Positions 2,134 through 9,795 of a DNA stretch of 36,548 bases are shown here, piece by piece. Position 1 is the stretch's first letter. Every line of letters begins with the position of its first letter. The notes below the pieces were generated by a model. The model saw only the letters and a list, made by a program, of their open reading frames with translations. It was not told the DNA's origin and searched no databases. Origin of the DNA: an uncultured Bacteroidota bacterium. Lineage in GTDB: Bacteria > Bacteroidota > Bacteroidia > Chitinophagales > Chitinophagaceae. The stretch spans positions 1 through 36,548 of the forward strand of contig CAIVKC010000026.1 in assembly GCA_903906365.1 (NCBI GenBank), read 5' to 3'. Both the position numbers and the translations under genes were made by a program.

Positions 2134-2326
2134 GCCCGGCGGCGGCCAAGAACGCCTGCCCGGCTGAAATAATTCCCCGGAAAACCCGTTTATTGGGATT
2201 ACAGCACCCCCTCAGGGGAAAGCTGCCTAATTGAATGCTGACACTGCCCTGGGAGCTTCTTGGAATAAAAGATGGCTGTCCAACAAAATAAAAGGTCGGA
2301 TCCCCGGGAACAAAACTGCCTGTTTG

Positions 2327-5300
2327 ATGAAAAATATGTACTTCCTCTTGCTGATTGGTTCGGTCCTGGTCGCTGCTCAATTGTCTGCCCAGCAGGTGCC
2401 CCCTGTGATACGCTTTAAGAACGGTGATTTCGCGGCGGCCCGTAACCCCCAAAAAGGGAGGGAACTGGCATCCCAGCTTAGGCTTACCCGTTTTGAAAAA
2501 AAATATTACCCGCTGATTCATTTCAGTACCCTTCCCGGCGACCAGCAAAAAAAGGAACTGGCTGCCGGCGGAATTAAACTCTATGACTATTATCCCGGCA
2601 ATGCATACCTGGCGGAGGTATCCGACAGCCTGTCCTCGGATATGGCCCGGAAATACCATATCAACGGGGTATATCCTGTCTCCAGGCAGTTCAAATTATC
2701 GGCGGCCCTGCTTGAACATTTGGCCAACTCCAGCCCCATTTCTTCCAAACTCCTGTCTGTGAGTTTTTTTGGCAGCATCAGCAAGCAACGCGTGGGGGAA
2801 GAAATCACCCGCCTGGGCGGACAGCTGGTTTCCACCAAAATCCAGCCTGACCATGCCCTCTTCATCAACGCCCCTGCCGGAGCCCTGGTAAAAATCGCCG
2901 CACTGCCTTTTATCACCGCCATCACTGAACAGTCCCTGCAGGACGTTCCCTTAAATTATAATAACCATGCGGCCTACAGCCTGGATGCGCTTTGTGAAAT
3001 AACCGGGAGAAACCTGTTTGGCAAAAACGTAACAGTGGGCGTAGGCGATGATTCGGATCCTTCCACCCATATTGATTTTGCAGGAAGACTGATTAACCGC
3101 ACGCCGGCCCCGCCCAATGTTCACGGCAGTCATACCACCGGCACTACGGGGGGCGGCGGCATCCTGAATCCCATGTATCGGGGAATGGCCCCGAAATCCA
3201 CCCTGATCAGCCAGTATTACAGCGATATCCTGGTCAATGCGGAGACCTATATCCATGATTATAATATGGTGCTCACCAATAATTCCTATTATTCCGGTAA
3301 TGCCGGTTGTGCCGGGGAAGGACAATATGATGTACTGAGTAATTACGTGGATGCCCAGCAAAATGCACATACCAGCCTGCTGGATGTATTTGCATCCGGA
3401 AATGACGGTTCTCTTACCTGCCAGCCATATCCGGCTTATTTCGGCACCGTAAAATCCGGGTACCAGTGCGGGAAAAACGTTCTGACCGTGGGAGCCGATA
3501 CCAATACCAACCATATCATCTGGCATTATTCCAGCCGCGGGCCTGTGGCAGACGGACGCATCAAACCCGAGATCATTGCGGGAGGTGTGGGGATCATATC
3601 CACCTATGCATACAATATTTATGGTTCTGATAACGGAACCTCCATGGCCTGTCCGACGGTAACGGGAACCCTGGCCCTGCTCTATGAACGTTACCGTCAG
3701 TTGCATGGCGGCGCTGATCCTGCCGCTTCCCTGATCAAGGCCGTAGCCTGCAATGGTGCCGATGACCTGGGTAATCCAGGGCCGGACTATACCTATGGAT
3801 TCGGAAGAATCAATGCGCGCACAGCCGTGGAAGCCCTTGAAAAAAACCAATATTTTACCGGCACCCTCTCCGACGGTGGGAACAGCAGCTTTTCCCTCAG
3901 CACTGTTCCTGCCGGGGCCTACCAGGTTAAAATCATGCTCTATTGGTCAGATCCGGCAGCGGCCCCCAATGCCGGGGCTGCGCTGGTGAACGACCTGGAC
4001 CTGACTGTTACCGGATCGGATGGAGTTCCCCACCACCCGCTGATATTGAATCCGGCTGCAGGCCACGTGAATGACCCTGCCACAGAAGGGGTGGATCATA
4101 TCAACAATATTGAACAGGTGGTCATCAGTAATCCCCCTGCCGGAAACCTGGCCATCACGGTAAATGGCACCCATATCCCTTCCGGACCGCAGGATTTCGT
4201 AGTGGTTTACCAGGTCATCACCCCTTCGGTGGTGGTGGAATATCCATTTGGCAGCGAAACCTGGGTGCCAGCTCAGACCGAAAAGATAAGATGGAATGCC
4301 TATGGCGGTTCGGGAAACGGATTTACCATAGAATATTCCGGTGATCAGGGAATGAGTTGGTCCCTGCTGAGTAATTCGGTGGCTGACTCCTTGCGCTCAT
4401 TTGCCTGGACCCTTCCGCCTGCACCCACCACCCAGGGACTAATCCGGGTAACCAGGAACAATGCAGGACTCAGCGGAACATCTCACAGCCCCTTTACCAT
4501 CCTTGGGCAGCCGGTTATTACCCTTACCAAACCCTGCCAGGGATATGCCCAGCTGACCTGGAATGCCATACCGGGTGCGGGCAGTTACCAGATTATGAAG
4601 CTCCATGTGGACAGTATGCAGGCAATTGCCTCCACCACCGATACCAGCTTTTTGCTTCAGGGCCTGAACCGGGACAGCACCTACTGGCTCACGGTACGTG
4701 CCGTGCTGGGCAATACCCCCGGCAGAAGGGCGGTGGCCGCCAGCATTATTCCCAACAGCGGACCATGTACGCTTTTTTCCAATGATTTTATGACCGATTC
4801 CCTGGTTTCCCCGGTCAATGGCCGCCAATACACGTCCAGTTCCCTGGGCAGCAGTACCCACCTGAACGTGGAATTGAAAAACGGGGGCAGCCTGCCATCT
4901 TCCGCTCCATTCCAGGTTTCATTCCAGGTAAACGGCGGCCCCGTGGTCTCAGAAAGCAGTGCTTCGGTGGTAGCGGCCGGGGCATCCTATGTCTATCAGT
5001 TCAATACCCCCTACGATTTTTCTGCCCCGGGAAGCTACCAACTCAAAATCTGGGTGGATTACCCCGGGGATACCCTGCATGCCAATGATACCCTGCTGGC
5101 CACCGTCCGTCAGCTGAGCAACGATACCCTGCTGTTGAATCCTTCCTTCCGGGAAGGATTTGAGAGCGCTTCACCGGCCTCCTACGGCAACGGCCAGGTA
5201 GGGCTTGGGGGACTGGACAGGTTTGATTTCCGGGCCAGTGACGGATTTGGCCGTTTAAGAACATTTGTCAATACAGGTTTTGCCAGATCCGGGCAGCGCT

Positions 5301-7639
5301 GCGGCACCCTGGACCGTAACAGCTACTCCAGCAGCGCTTCGGCAGACAGCCTGGTGGGTACCTTCAATTTATCCAATTGTCTTCCCACCGACCAGATCTG
5401 GCTGGATTTCTACTATAAAAACCAGGGCATCAATTTTACCCTCCCCGGCAACCAGGTCTGGATCAGGGGAAATGACCAGGCTGCCTGGATACCGGTACTG
5501 AACCTGTCTACTGACCCCTCGCTGATCGGACAGTACCAGCCCTCCGGCGCCATCGATGTAACGGGTCTGCTCGCCTCTGCCCAGCCCTCCCAGCAGGTTA
5601 GCAGCAGTTTTCAGGTTAAATTCGGTGAACAGGGATATACCTCCTCCAATTCTGTAATACCAGACGGAACGCTGGATAACGGGTATTCCTTTGATGACCT
5701 GACCATTTCACGGCCCACAAATGACTTAGGCCTCATTGCCCTGGTTACTCCCGGGCTTTCCAATATTTGCGGGCTCGGAAATGCCGAGGTGATCAGCGTA
5801 AAAGTCAGGAACTATAGTAAAAACACCCTCAGCAATATACCCGTCAGCTACGCGATCAATGGACAGGTGGTCAATGAGACCATCTCTTCCCTGCAGGGGC
5901 TTGACTCCCTGGTCTACACATTCACCCGGAAGGCCGATCTGAGTGCTTATGGCGGATATACCATCCGGGCTTGGGTGAGTTACCCGGGCGACAATTATCC
6001 CAACAATGACAGCCTGCCAGCCATTCGATTCCAGACAACGCCCGTCATCGCCAGCTTCCCCTACCTGGAAGGTTTTGAAAACAGCAACGGCTACTGGTTT
6101 ACCAATGGCATCAACGATTCCTGGCAATGGGGTATTCCGAACAAAACCATCATCAACCATGCTGCCAACGGAACCAGGGCATGGGTAACCAACCTGAATG
6201 GAAATTATAATAACAATGAAATGTCCTACCTGTATTCCCCCTGCTTTGACCTGAGCAGCCTGCAGGCACCGGTGTTTTCCTTCAGCCATATTTTCCAGAC
6301 GGAAGATGACTGTGACTGCGATTACCACTGGGTGGAATATAGCCTCAATGATTCTGTCTGGATCAAACTGGGCGCAGTGGCGGGAGGAACCAACTGGTAC
6401 GACAACAGCACCCGGCAGTCATGGCAGCATTCTGATACCCTCTGGCATGTGTCCAGCTATGATGTGCCAAGCCATTCCTCCAAAGTAAGGTTCCGTATTG
6501 TGATGAGCAGCGACCCGGCCACCAATTATGAAGGAATTGGCATTGATGATATCCATATTTTCGATAAGGCCCCTGTTTACAATGGCCCTTCCCTGGATGG
6601 GGGGCTTACCCAAAACCTGTCCGGTTCAGCCTGGGTGGATTTCGCTTCAGGGGGAACCCTGGTGGCTTCCATAAACCCCAACGGACAGAACCTTGGAAGT
6701 ACCGCGGTCCGGGTATTCAGGAATGATTCCCTATCTGTGAGACATACCCTTAACCAGTATTACCTGGACAGAAATATCGTCATACAGCCTGCTGTTCAGC
6801 CAACCGACAGCGTTTCGGTCAGGTTCTATTTCACCGATTCGGAAGCCCTGCGGCTGATCCAGGCCACTGGCTGTACATCCTGCAGTTCCCTGCACGATGC
6901 CTACCAGTCTGGCATTACCCAATACAGCCTGGCCCCTTCGGAGGAAGACAGCACACTGGCCAATAATATGCATGGAATCTATGGATTTATCCTGCCCCAT
7001 CAGCAGGTCAGCGTCATACCGCATGACAATGGTTACTATGCGGAATTCAAAGTAGCCCGCTTTTCGGAATTCTGGATCAATGGAGGAGGGATTACCCAGG
7101 ACCAGTCGCTGGGTACGGTCTTACAAACCTTTACGGCTACCCTGGTGGATTCCAGCGCCCTGTTGCAATGGAGCACCCTCCATCAGAGTGGTTTGGACAG
7201 TTTCGTGATTGAAAAAAGCACGGACAGTGTTGTCTTCATCAGGCTATCGGCAGTGGCGGCCTTACAATCAGGCGGAGACGTCCTGTCCTACCAATACAGG
7301 GACACCTCCCTGTCAAAAGGGGTAAACTATTACCGCTTAATCATACTCCATAAGGACAGCAGCATACAGTATTCCCCGGTACGATGGGTATTGTATAATC
7401 CCCAGCAGTTTATAAAAGGGATCTACCCCAATCCGGTGACCAAAGGCACCCTTTATATTAATACGTCCGGCAATTGCAACAGCGTTGAAGTGATGGATGT
7501 CTCCGGAAGGGTGATCAGGTCGATACGCACGGCAGGGACCCAGCAGACCATTTCCATGGCAGGGCTGAGTAAGGGTATCTATCTGGTGGTCGTACTTACA
7601 GATAGCGGCCGGCAGGTGGCTAAAATTCTGGTGGAATAA
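2327..7639 (+). CDS. Secreted S8 (subtilisin-like) peptidase with T9SS sorting domain
   Basis: This gene encodes a giant secreted subtilase of 1770 residues. The frame is open from a TTG at 2231, but the ATG at 2327 is preferred because it begins a clear signal peptide (MKNMYFLLLIGSVLVAAQLSAQ). The S8 domain has the Asp in VGVGDDSD (Asp241), the His in HGSHTTGT (His266), the oxyanion Asn in ASGNDG (Asn359) and the Ser in GTSMACP (Ser439). The Asp motif is not the usual DTG/DSG. After the protease come beta-sandwich modules: an Ig-like domain, an FN3-like domain, two CARDB-like segments with jelly-roll/MAM-like segments between them. The last 75 or so residues (from GIYPNPV to AKILVE) are a type A Por secretion domain. 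The protein is thus predicted to cross the outer membrane by the type IX system and be released or anchored on the surface. Its substrate cannot be read from sequence. Confidence 0.93.
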   Translation: MKNMYFLLLIGSVLVAAQLSAQQVPPVIRFKNGDFAAARNPQKGRELASQLRLTRFEKKYYPLIHFSTLPGDQQKKELAAGGIKLYDYYPGNAYLAEVSDSLSSDMARKYHINGVYPVSRQFKLSAALLEHLANSSPISSKLLSVSFFGSISKQRVGEEITRLGGQLVSTKIQPDHALFINAPAGALVKIAALPFITAITEQSLQDVPLNYNNHAAYSLDALCEITGRNLFGKNVTVGVGDDSDPSTHIDFAGRLINRTPAPPNVHGSHTTGTTGGGGILNPMYRGMAPKSTLISQYYSDILVNAETYIHDYNMVLTNNSYYSGNAGCAGEGQYDVLSNYVDAQQNAHTSLLDVFASGNDGSLTCQPYPAYFGTVKSGYQCGKNVLTVGADTNTNHIIWHYSSRGPVADGRIKPEIIAGGVGIISTYAYNIYGSDNGTSMACPTVTGTLALLYERYRQLHGGADPAASLIKAVACNGADDLGNPGPDYTYGFGRINARTAVEALEKNQYFTGTLSDGGNSSFSLSTVPAGAYQVKIMLYWSDPAAAPNAGAALVNDLDLTVTGSDGVPHHPLILNPAAGHVNDPATEGVDHINNIEQVVISNPPAGNLAITVNGTHIPSGPQDFVVVYQVITPSVVVEYPFGSETWVPAQTEKIRWNAYGGSGNGFTIEYSGDQGMSWSLLSNSVADSLRSFAWTLPPAPTTQGLIRVTRNNAGLSGTSHSPFTILGQPVITLTKPCQGYAQLTWNAIPGAGSYQIMKLHVDSMQAIASTTDTSFLLQGLNRDSTYWLTVRAVLGNTPGRRAVAASIIPNSGPCTLFSNDFMTDSLVSPVNGRQYTSSSLGSSTHLNVELKNGGSLPSSAPFQVSFQVNGGPVVSESSASVVAAGASYVYQFNTPYDFSAPGSYQLKIWVDYPGDTLHANDTLLATVRQLSNDTLLLNPSFREGFESASPASYGNGQVGLGGLDRFDFRASDGFGRLRTFVNTGFARSGQRCGTLDRNSYSSSASADSLVGTFNLSNCLPTDQIWLDFYYKNQGINFTLPGNQVWIRGNDQAAWIPVLNLSTDPSLIGQYQPSGAIDVTGLLASAQPSQQVSSSFQVKFGEQGYTSSNSVIPDGTLDNGYSFDDLTISRPTNDLGLIALVTPGLSNICGLGNAEVISVKVRNYSKNTLSNIPVSYAINGQVVNETISSLQGLDSLVYTFTRKADLSAYGGYTIRAWVSYPGDNYPNNDSLPAIRFQTTPVIASFPYLEGFENSNGYWFTNGINDSWQWGIPNKTIINHAANGTRAWVTNLNGNYNNNEMSYLYSPCFDLSSLQAPVFSFSHIFQTEDDCDCDYHWVEYSLNDSVWIKLGAVAGGTNWYDNSTRQSWQHSDTLWHVSSYDVPSHSSKVRFRIVMSSDPATNYEGIGIDDIHIFDKAPVYNGPSLDGGLTQNLSGSAWVDFASGGTLVASINPNGQNLGSTAVRVFRNDSLSVRHTLNQYYLDRNIVIQPAVQPTDSVSVRFYFTDSEALRLIQATGCTSCSSLHDAYQSGITQYSLAPSEEDSTLANNMHGIYGFILPHQQVSVIPHDNGYYAEFKVARFSEFWINGGGITQDQSLGTVLQTFTATLVDSSALLQWSTLHQSGLDSFVIEKSTDSVVFIRLSAVAALQSGGDVLSYQYRDTSLSKGVNYYRLIILHKDSSIQYSPVRWVLYNPQQFIKGIYPNPVTKGTLYINTSGNCNSVEVMDVSGRVIRSIRTAGTQQTISMAGLSKGIYLVVVLTDSGRQVAKILVE

Positions 7640-7734: not shown

Positions 7735-7923
7735 TTACTTCTTAATTGCAGAGTCTAATTTCTTAGCAGTGCTATCAACTTTCTTTGCTGCTGAATCAAC
7801 AATAACCTTTGCAGAATCAACAACGGCTTTAGCAGTAGAATCAGGAGATTTAGTTTCTGTGCTTGCGTTGTTTGTGCATGCTGCGAATGAGCCAATAGCC
7901 AATACTAATAAGACCTTTTTCAT
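7735..7923 (-). CDS. Small lipoprotein with heptad repeats (Braun lipoprotein-like layout)
   Basis: The 62-residue product starts with MKKVLLVLAIGSFAAC, a lipoprotein signal with Cys16, leaving a mature protein of about 47 residues. From residue 28 the sequence repeats with a spacing of 8, 7, 7 and 7 residues between Asp-Ser pairs, in units such as VDSAAKK, VDSTAKK and LDSAIKK, and it ends in Lys-Lys. Val/Leu and Ala fall in the a and d positions, so a short helical coiled coil is expected. The layout (small lipoprotein, coiled coil, C-terminal lysine) resembles Braun's Lpp of gammaproteobacteria, but no sequence relation is claimed. The gene is isolated between convergent and divergent neighbours and has its own terminator. 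Function unknown; similar short Lys/Asp/Ala-rich lipoproteins may have a purely structural role. Confidence 0.75.
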   Translation of the reverse strand: MKKVLLVLAIGSFAACTNNASTETKSPDSTAKAVVDSAKVIVDSAAKKVDSTAKKLDSAIKK

Positions 7924-8128
7924 GTGAGAATTTTTTTTGTTTGTTATGAATAGTTTAGGATTAATACGATATTGTGCAAAAAGTAACCCTTGATCAAAAA
8001 GATTTTCATATATTTTTTAGATTAATATATAAACGCGCGTTTATTAGCGTAAAATCCCCAATTTTGAAAATAATTGCTGCTGTTTTGGGTTACGAATATT
8101 TAATTTCGGTATTAAATAAAGCATCAGT

Positions 8129-8698
8129 TTGAAGACAGGAACCAACGAACAAGATTTATTAAAGGGGTTGGCAAACAATGATAAACTGGCCGTCGAGACC
8201 ATTTATAAACAACATTATAATATGGTGCAGACGCTGATTATCAGTAATAACGGAAGCCCAGAGGATGCAAAGGATATTTTTCAGGAGGCCATGATTGTCC
8301 TTTATGAAAAAGCCAAATCGGGTGTTTTTGAACTGAATTGCCTGCTGAAAACGTATTTATATTCAGTATGTCGTCGCCTTTGGCTTAAAAGGCTTTCCCA
8401 GATGCAGCGCACGGTAGCTGAAGTGGAAAACATGGAGGATGTCGTAGCTGTTGAAGAACAGCTCGAATGGCATGAGCAGCAAAATGCCGATTTCCATTTG
8501 ATGGAAAAAGCCATGCAAAGCCTGGGTGAACCTTGCAGGAGTCTGTTGGAGGCTTATTATCTGCAAAAAAAGAGCATGGTGGAGATTGCCGGCAATTTCG
8601 GGTACACCAATGCCGATAATGCGAAGAACCAAAAATACAAATGCCTGATGAGGCTCAAGAAGCTATTCTTTGACCAATATAATAATACGCAAGGATAA
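8129..8698 (+). CDS. ECF-type RNA polymerase sigma factor
   Basis: The 189-residue product has the two-domain plan of an extracytoplasmic-function sigma factor. Region 2 spans roughly residues 25-92 and includes DAKDIFQEAMIVLYEKA, the core-binding and promoter-melting part. Region 4 spans roughly 127-180 with a helix-turn-helix around SMVEIAGNFGYTNADNAKNQ, which would read the -35-type element. The start is a TTG: the next ATG (Met32) would cut into region 2, and the residues after the TTG (LLKGLANNDK) match the usual ECF N-terminus. The stop codon overlaps the start of the next gene (TAATG), so the two are translationally coupled. The neighbour is its likely membrane regulator. No obvious self-type promoter was found in the 205-base upstream gap. 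Confidence 0.92.
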   Translation: MKTGTNEQDLLKGLANNDKLAVETIYKQHYNMVQTLIISNNGSPEDAKDIFQEAMIVLYEKAKSGVFELNCLLKTYLYSVCRRLWLKRLSQMQRTVAEVENMEDVVAVEEQLEWHEQQNADFHLMEKAMQSLGEPCRSLLEAYYLQKKSMVEIAGNFGYTNADNAKNQKYKCLMRLKKLFFDQYNNTQG

Positions 8699-9795
8699 TG
8701 GAGGACATTGTAATGTTGGATGCTATTGAAAGATATATCCGGGGTGAAATGCTACCGGAGGAAAGGGTGTTTTTTGAACAACTCCGGAAAACCAATGCGG
8801 TGGTCGATCAAATGGTGGTGGAACACACCGTATTGCTCAACCAGCTCAATAAATTCGGGGAAAGGAAGGAATATACCCATACCCTGCAGGATGTACATAC
8901 CCTTTTGTTTGAATCCGGGGAAATTAAAAAGCCGGCGCCGGCAAAAATTCTGGTCCTCTGGAAAAAGTACAAACGGGTGATCGCCGTGGCGGCCTGCATT
9001 GCCGGCATCACGGCCCTGAGTATCAGCGGCCTGATCGCCTATTTTACCCCCAAGCCCAATGTTTCCGAAATAGCCCAGCTCCGCCAGGAACTCAGTAAGG
9101 TTAAAAATATTGCCAGGCAAACCGAAGCGGCCATAGATAAATTCAAAAACAGTCCCTCCATCCGGCCTGTGGCACCCGGCAAATTTGGTGGTACCGGGTT
9201 TCTCATAGATTCCCGTGGGTTTCTGGCAACCAGTGCCCATGTCGTGAGTAAGGCCGACTCCGTTTATGTAGTCAACAACAAGGGGGAATATTTCAAGGCT
9301 TCTACCATTTACCTCAATGACACCACCGATATAGCCGTTTTGAAAATCCAGGACGACCGGTTTCAGGGGTCCAGATCACTGCCTTACGGTATACGCAAAT
9401 CCTCCGCTGACCTGGGGGAGGAAATCTTCACGCTGGGCTTTCCGCGCAATGAAATCGTATATGGTAAAGGATACCTGAGTGCCTACACGGGTTACAACGG
9501 GGATACCATGTCCTACCAGATTGCCATTTCCGCCAATCCGGGCAATTCCGGTGGTCCGATCTTTAATCAAAACGGGGAAGTGATTGGCGTACTGAGCGGC
9601 AAGCAGATTACTGTGGAAGGGGTGGTTTTTTCCTCCAAATCCAAGAACATCTTTAGGGCGGTAGAAGAAATTAAAAAGGACAGCACGCCCAATAATGCCA
9701 TCAAGCTTTCCAACAGTTCCCTGGTTAAGGGTCTTGACCGCGTGGAACAACTCAAAAAAATCGAAGACTGCATTTTTCTGGTAAAAAGTTATTAA
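8698..9795 (+). CDS. Membrane-anchored HtrA-like serine protease with anti-sigma-like N-terminus
   Basis: The 365-residue protein has three parts. Residues 1-75 form a helical cytoplasmic segment (AIERYIRGEMLPEERVFF) that resembles the N-terminal sigma-binding part of FecR-type anti-sigma factors; it has no zinc-finger cysteines. Residues about 92-116 are a single membrane helix after the basic KKYKR, and 121-150 look like a short coiled coil. Residues 160-330 are a trypsin-fold S1C protease with His181 (SAHVV), Asp211 (TTDIAVLKI) and Ser284 (GNSGGP). No PDZ domain follows; the protein ends soon after the protease. It starts inside the stop of the ECF sigma gene (TAATG); a second ATG at 8713 has a GGAGG eight bases upstream and could also be used. 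The inference is that the N-terminus holds the sigma factor and the periplasmic protease senses or executes the release signal. Confidence 0.88.
   Translation: MEDIVMLDAIERYIRGEMLPEERVFFEQLRKTNAVVDQMVVEHTVLLNQLNKFGERKEYTHTLQDVHTLLFESGEIKKPAPAKILVLWKKYKRVIAVAACIAGITALSISGLIAYFTPKPNVSEIAQLRQELSKVKNIARQTEAAIDKFKNSPSIRPVAPGKFGGTGFLIDSRGFLATSAHVVSKADSVYVVNNKGEYFKASTIYLNDTTDIAVLKIQDDRFQGSRSLPYGIRKSSADLGEEIFTLGFPRNEIVYGKGYLSAYTGYNGDTMSYQIAISANPGNSGGPIFNQNGEVIGVLSGKQITVEGVVFSSKSKNIFRAVEEIKKDSTPNNAIKLSNSSLVKGLDRVEQLKKIEDCIFLVKSY

Follow-up and report, generated by a model that had tools for sequence, protein, structure and literature searches.

A conserved ECF sigma factor–protease unit of Chitinophagaceae and a candidate anti-sigma factor carrying its own HtrA-fold protease

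Why should a membrane-bound protease be encoded in overlap with the gene for an ECF sigma factor? The question is raised by two genes in the window, the 36,548-nt stretch of DNA analysed here. In the portion of PMC7406223 on which we draw, class I anti-sigma domains adjoin only 6% of Bacteroidetes ECF sigma factors versus 32% when every phylum is counted, a gap that leads its authors to ask if Bacteroidetes rely mainly on other modes. The answer that we favour, with a probability of about 0.7, is that the two genes form an autoregulated, self-contained envelope-stress circuit, in which the second protein would be an anti-sigma factor equipped with its own protease. The genes are the following:

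8129..8698, + strand: gene of the ECF sigma factor (189 aa from a TTG start, stop codon included; passes the cut-offs of Sigma70_r2 and TIGR02937)
8698..9795, + strand: anti-sigma-like, membrane, and protease gene (365 aa, ATG start, stop included)

A sequence-only reading had proposed that an ECF sigma factor is coupled here to a one-chain membrane protease and that the genes overlap by TAATG. Both ORFs were found as claimed, and at their junction (GGATAATGGAG) the TAA and the ATG share one base (8698). The sigma protein matches Pfam PF04542 (Sigma70_r2; 31.3 bits, cut-off 24) and NCBIfam TIGR02937 (67.4 bits, cut-off 42.9; match covering residues 21-178), and scores 12.4 bits against sigma-70 region 4 (Pfam PF04545), under the cut-off of 24.1.

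The gene order is conserved. Of the 150 best-listed homologues in the family Chitinophagaceae, 148 are immediately preceded by the sigma gene (30/30 in one part of the set and 118/120 in the other), and the remaining two lie 6 and 20 nt from a contig end; the 150 loci are the matches listed, all of them examined, with lower-scoring matches outside the count. Order kept this consistently excludes chance as its cause. At least one related protease is present in 193 of the 195 family genomes sampled, a figure that counts ordinary HtrA proteins too. The named collection gave 80 loci, and 77 remained after three ordinary proteases of other phyla were left out; the sigma gene is upstream of the protease-family gene in 74 of these 77, and the other three are cut by contig ends. 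Genera with the unit include Niastella, Sediminibacterium, Lacibacter, Pedobacter, Mucilaginibacter, Sphingobacterium, Parapedobacter, and Hymenobacter. A full-length protease match (profile start at position 26 or before) is found in 39 of 247 class genomes, with a sigma gene adjoining in 38; the lone exception (L279) sits one base before a contig end. In the phylum sample (247 genomes), seven matching genomes lie outside the class, and they match only from position 83 or later. The family, named-collection, and class sets overlap, and their counts are not additive. The survey thus reveals a conserved unit, and in all three sets of loci homologues of the protease lie mostly beside sigma genes. 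The unit is compact and near-universal in Chitinophagaceae and occurs also in Sphingobacteriaceae and Hymenobacter; its carriers are soil and freshwater relatives of Bacteroides. At this locus, the nearest named relatives are Flavihumibacter and other Chitinophagaceae, at 63% and less, which points to a member of that family as the likely source.

AlphaFold2 (73 aligned sequences) models the 365-aa protein with a mean pLDDT of 89.1 and a pTM of 0.58. In particular, the model contains helices at residues 2-15, 20-32, 34-72, 83-116, and 122-151, a weak link at 152-160, protease strands within 163-314, a helix at 348-358, and a strand at 359-364. The parts of the protein are encoded as follows:

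8698..8937, + strand: helical domain, residues 1-80, proposed anti-sigma domain, cytoplasmic (block pLDDT 85-97; HMM; hhalign)
8974..9048, + strand: membrane helix, residues 93-117, within predicted helix 83-116 (hydropathy, AlphaFold2)
9061..9150, + strand: periplasmic helix, residues 122-151, probable coil or stalk (AlphaFold2)
9184..9678, + strand: HtrA-fold serine protease domain, residues 163-327 (Trypsin_2, Foldseek, PDB sequences)
9238..9240, + strand: codon of His181 (identical in 233/233)
9328..9330, + strand: codon of Asp211 (identical in 233/233)
9547..9549, + strand: codon of Ser284, the nucleophile (identical in 233/233)
9739..9789, + strand: C-terminal helix and strand, residues 348-364, conserved (block pLDDT 95-98; alignments)

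Hydropathy peaks in the 19-residue windows starting at residues 94-96, right behind the basic segment KKYKR. This peak, together with predicted helix 83-116, confirms the single membrane helix that had been proposed, and we infer that the N-terminus lies on the cytoplasmic side.

Beyond the gene pair itself, the locus contains a mirrored pair of promoter-like motifs and a divergent lipoprotein gene:

8087..8114, + strand: motif GGGTTAC-N15-GTATTA before the sigma gene (sequence patterns)
7962..7989, - strand: mirrored copy of the motif, ahead of the divergent lipoprotein gene (sequence patterns)
7735..7923, - strand: small divergent lipoprotein gene, 62 aa, rich in DS repeats (ORF; NF050142)

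The motif has the general form GGGTTAC-N15/16-GTATTA. The whole 4.66 Mb genome contains only two exact copies, those at 8087-8114 (+) and 7962-7989 (-), and two copies with one mismatch, both inside genes; a reversed control pattern gave zero exact matches in the same genome. At least one exact match is present in 123 of 146 family genomes. On the sigma strand, 227 of 232 upstream regions contain GGTTAC, in most cases 30-50 nt ahead of the start codon; GTAT follows after a spacing of 15 or 16 nt at 206 of 239 sites, and the mirrored site is found in 203 regions. When GTA is required 14-16 nt after GGTTAC, the motif is present on the sigma side in 204 regions, on the mirror side in 177, and on both sides in 163. 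This form occurs 388 times in 61,480 nt of upstream DNA versus 28 times in 745,349 nt elsewhere in 77 loci, and is thus about 170 times denser upstream of sigma genes than in the rest of those loci.

The putative promoter is unlike the Bacteroidota housekeeping promoter, given as TAnnTTTG in the relevant part of PMC9723704, and consists of two boxes, as would suit an ECF sigma factor. Because the motif precedes the sigma factor's own gene, there is good reason to expect that the free sigma factor recognises GGGTTAC-N15/16-GTATTA and thereby switches on both its own operon and the lipoprotein gene. The sigma-side motif ends 15 nt ahead of the TTG start (8114-8129), and in most relatives the motif lies 30-50 nt ahead of the start, so that transcripts of the sigma gene probably have little or no leader. 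Twenty motif places away from the sigma locus in family genomes, hand-picked for a T-rich look, were also considered. The next ORF encodes a 96-aa protein in six (L421, L422, L426, L428, L429, L433), an exported protein of roughly 140 aa in six (L423, L425, L430, L431, L432, L434), and a small lipoprotein in four; in two it encodes a divergent branch of the sigma factor, and two are unclear. The single 96-aa protein scanned, that of L429, passes the cut-off of AMPK1_CBM, a family that fits oddly into an envelope regulon. The window's genome contains only a weak homologue of the 96-aa protein (18%, E 9.6e-4) and two relatives of the roughly 140-aa exported protein, which are not preceded by the motif, so that these places serve as leads only.

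The small lipoprotein is itself a regular companion of the unit. Judged from the ORF only, 212 of 230 loci have a small lipoprotein gene versus 43 of 1540 random windows. Where a mirrored motif is present, 175 of 177 loci contain an ORF that encodes 52-91 aa, and each of these 175 products has a lipobox-like cysteine. The 62-aa protein of the window scores 51.7 bits against NF050142 (PG1828 family), just over the cut-off of 50; among seven other divergent lipoproteins scanned, six fall below the cut-off and one has no match. In the class, 27 loci with the NF050142 family were found, and this sigma gene lies beside it in only five (three genomes, including the window's). We make no claim of an old link to PG1827/PG1828 of Porphyromonas gingivalis, as had been suggested by the neighbouring locus numbers of an ECF sigma factor (SigH) and the lipoprotein that gives NF050142 its name. 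Two class genomes have two tandem PG1828-like lipoprotein genes beside the sigma unit (L398/G398, C3:289995-290800; G483, C11:38896-39411). Upstream of the lipoprotein gene in the window, positions 2231-7639 encode an 1802-aa exported protein, with a GTSMACP motif that we take to be subtilase-like and a C-terminal end that presumably resembles a type IX secretion sorting domain.

The protease domain belongs to the HtrA fold. Trypsin_2 is matched at residues 165-298 (81.9 bits, cut-off 27.6), a Foldseek search with the protease model returned HhoA, DegS, and HtrA1 as best hits (E about 1e-12; 943 PDB chains at E<=0.001), and PDB sequence matches comprise MucD, DegS, and HTRA1. The match to the DegS model TIGR02038 (57.2 bits) lies under its cut-off of 422.95. 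No PDZ family was found in the 365-aa protein or its 73 aligned homologues. His181, Asp211, Gly282, Ser284, and Gly285 are identical in 233/233 aligned homologues, and residue 283 is Asn in 221, Gln in 10, and Ser in 2. The complete S1C triad without a PDZ domain, as first read from the letters, is therefore borne out. Judged by this conservation, the protease is kept active across the homologues, since its triad is invariant and a dead sensor domain would not stay so conserved. The C-terminal helix and strand are likewise conserved throughout, and they also end the proteases of a related family (L135-L141), secreted proteins of 405-538 aa with other N-terminal parts, without the anti-sigma-like domain, and with no sigma gene in the fetched stretch. 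Because these secreted proteases carry the tail and not the N-terminal domain, the tail belongs to the protease module.

In the circuit that we propose, the 365-aa protein would hold the sigma factor at the membrane, and envelope trouble would activate the periplasmic protease domain. As the protease has no PDZ domain to inhibit it, a trigger other than PDZ must be supposed; perhaps a stray protein or lipoprotein binds to it, or its oligomer is altered. The activated domain would then cut near the membrane, in the protein itself or in a neighbour, and the sigma factor would be set free as the cytoplasmic piece is either degraded or released. Free sigma factor would give more sigma factor, holder, and lipoprotein, and fresh holder would end the response. 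Cutting is the preferred but weakest part of the circuit: self-cleavage is plausible, and we put forward only tentatively that the protease domain senses envelope trouble and frees the sigma factor by such a cut.

The main rival to self-cutting is that the protein is an anti-sigma factor whose protease is a mere output, which trims or degrades other periplasmic proteins, while a separate protease or a conformational signal frees the sigma factor; making more of the protein would then both repair the envelope and shut the response off. DegP-like proteases are known outputs of the RpoE system (as outlined in part of PMC8103513), the same protease and tail module occurs in secreted proteins without a sigma link, and, with no PDZ domain, there is no known DegS-type activation. 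A purely periplasmic enzyme, however, would need no one-to-one tie to a sigma factor, and all full-length homologues that could be tested retain the fusion. We regard the output reading as possible but somewhat unlikely.

A more specific form of the self-cutting circuit is doubtful. Here, one chain would comprise anti-sigma domain, sensor, and site-1 protease and would cut itself or an oligomer partner. Its C-terminal strand would complete the protease barrel through a circular permutation, which would place that strand at the C-terminus, and not at the usual N-terminus, and would let the catalytic barrel follow the membrane stalk without a break. The co-regulated divergent lipoprotein would serve as a feedback ligand that reports on lipoprotein traffic. 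In the model, the C-terminal helix and strand resemble the helix and first strand of canonical HtrA, and by our assignment the first barrel has five strands, in sequence order, and the second has six. Moving the tail columns ahead of the protease made hhalign matches to DegP-like and shorter HtrA-like profiles neither longer nor better, 56 of 100 column shuffles equalled or exceeded the tail alone in hhalign, and intra-protein couplings singled out no one partner strand for the C-terminal strand.

The self-contained circuit further depends on what the N-terminal domain does. The domain shows the layout of a class I anti-sigma factor, namely an N-terminal helical domain encoded by a gene adjoining an ECF gene. 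It had been described as FecR-like and helical; the helical part stands, as residues 1-80 are helical in the AlphaFold2 model, and the FecR-like part does not. No anti-sigma or FecR family matched the 365-aa protein at E up to 1 (Pfam, NCBIfam) or its 73 homologues at E up to 0.01 (Pfam), and a FecR or DUF4880 match was found in neither. An HMM of residues 1-80, however, finds the domain beside other sigma factors. It was run, with rows unselected, on the full set of 568 ORFs from 20 loci of related sigma genes that lack the protease partner (picks from the upper part of the list, not strictly its top 20, with two lower ones from family genomes), and it matched the gene after the sigma gene in 15 of the 20, at E 5.3e-5 or lower and at best 1.8e-9; the other five loci gave nothing better than 0.65. 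The genes after these related sigma factors encode membrane proteins with differing periplasmic parts. In hhalign, the N-terminal domain aligned with the 15 neighbours over 70 columns with a probability of 98.6, versus at most 6.8 for nine other protein windows and five sigma windows, and scored 78.5, versus at most 14.1 in 50 column shuffles; these 15 partners were chosen by eye, and the HMM run on all ORFs repeats the comparison without choosing. By these profile matches, the N-terminal domain is a module that moves between proteins but stays coupled to ECF sigma genes, and its occurrence after other Bacteroidota ECF sigma factors with varied periplasmic parts is the behaviour expected of an anti-sigma domain.

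A predicted complex gives a mixed picture. The sigma factor and the N-terminal domain, folded as one chain, reached a pTM of 0.76, with about 42 residues under pLDDT 50, so that their arrangement is predicted with some confidence. The fused-model sigma factor superimposed poorly on AlgU-MucA, BldN-RsbN, and sigmaE-RseA (target TM 0.41-0.47, rmsd 10.6-13.8 Å). Mean-field DCA between sigma factor and N-terminal domain (233 pairs, effective number 160) gave a top pair with a z of 6.7; the patch near sigma residue 26 and residue 66 scored 135, versus 104-135 in four shuffled pairings, and residues 93-172 scored higher (169). The N-terminal domain very probably holds the ECF sigma factor on the cytoplasmic side of the inner membrane.

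It is quite unlikely that the N-terminal domain instead activates or delivers the sigma factor, in the manner of the FecR N-terminus. That the domain matches no catalogued class I anti-sigma family would suit such a role, as would the precedent of E. coli FecR, of which the first 59 residues are needed for ECF activity (from a section of PMC7406223), but the domain has no FecR family match either, and where related modules are joined to different periplasmic parts, the proteins resemble simple sigma holders anchored in the membrane. That the protease gene is a mere co-transcribed target, with N-terminal helices unrelated to the sigma factor, is very improbable. In its favour, the coevolution patch is no stronger than in shuffled pairings, and sigma binding is only what we infer; against it, the module follows other ECF sigma factors with unrelated periplasmic parts in 15 of 20 loci. 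For the anti-sigma circuit, the sigma-holder role and autoregulation are well supported.

The sigma-protease unit falls outside class I anti-sigma models and would bring together a sigma factor, a holder that is also a protease, a promoter that can be recognised by its motif, and a single evident target; one chain may thus unite sensing, cutting, and gene control. It makes testable whether holder and site-1 protease can share a chain, what signal a protease of this kind detects in the absence of a PDZ domain, and what the small lipoprotein does, and its motif offers a candidate promoter for reading ECF regulons in a poorly studied group. We recognised no description of a fusion between an anti-sigma domain and an S1C protease in the portions of the literature searched; these do not include the ECF reclassification (doi 10.1093/nar/gkaa1229), which may list it.

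Several known systems share parts of this design. FecR-type regulators likewise have an N-terminal helical domain, one membrane helix, and a periplasmic part, encoded after an ECF sigma gene, but here a protease replaces the FecR periplasmic part, and no TonB-dependent receptor gene lies beside the genes in the window. MarP-type S1C proteases, the second-best NCBIfam match of the protease domain (68.5 bits, far under the cut-off of 250), are likewise membrane-tethered with the protease on the C-terminal side, whereas the 365-aa protein has a single membrane helix and an anti-sigma-like domain. The system of Dma anti-sigma factors and Das sigma factors (ECF21) of Bacteroides thetaiotaomicron, also from Bacteroidota, pairs an ECF gene with an adjacent gene whose product combines a membrane helix with a domain at its N-terminus that binds the sigma factor; Dma proteins, in the part of PMC13088901 that describes them, continue in a long disordered stretch that reaches the outer membrane, whereas the 365-aa protein ends in a protease, its AlphaFold2 model showing coil and protease after the membrane helix and no disordered stretch or outer-membrane part of the Dma type. 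BlaR1 is a single membrane protein that both senses and cuts and so governs transcription (per the relevant passage of PMC7593790), but it is a metalloprotease that acts in the cytoplasm on a repressor, with no sigma system. RpoE/RseA/DegS of E. coli and AlgU/MucA/AlgW share with the unit an ECF sigma factor, a membrane-bound cytoplasmic holder, and a periplasmic HtrA-fold sensor protease, and in the RseA/DegS type the holder and the protease are separate and DegS has a PDZ domain (both points from portions of PMC7593790 and PMC8103513). The 365-aa protein differs in being one chain, in having no PDZ domain, and in its conserved C-terminal helix and strand; in the proposed circuit, one chain would do the work of both RseA and DegS, with further steps, such as an intramembrane cut, possible.
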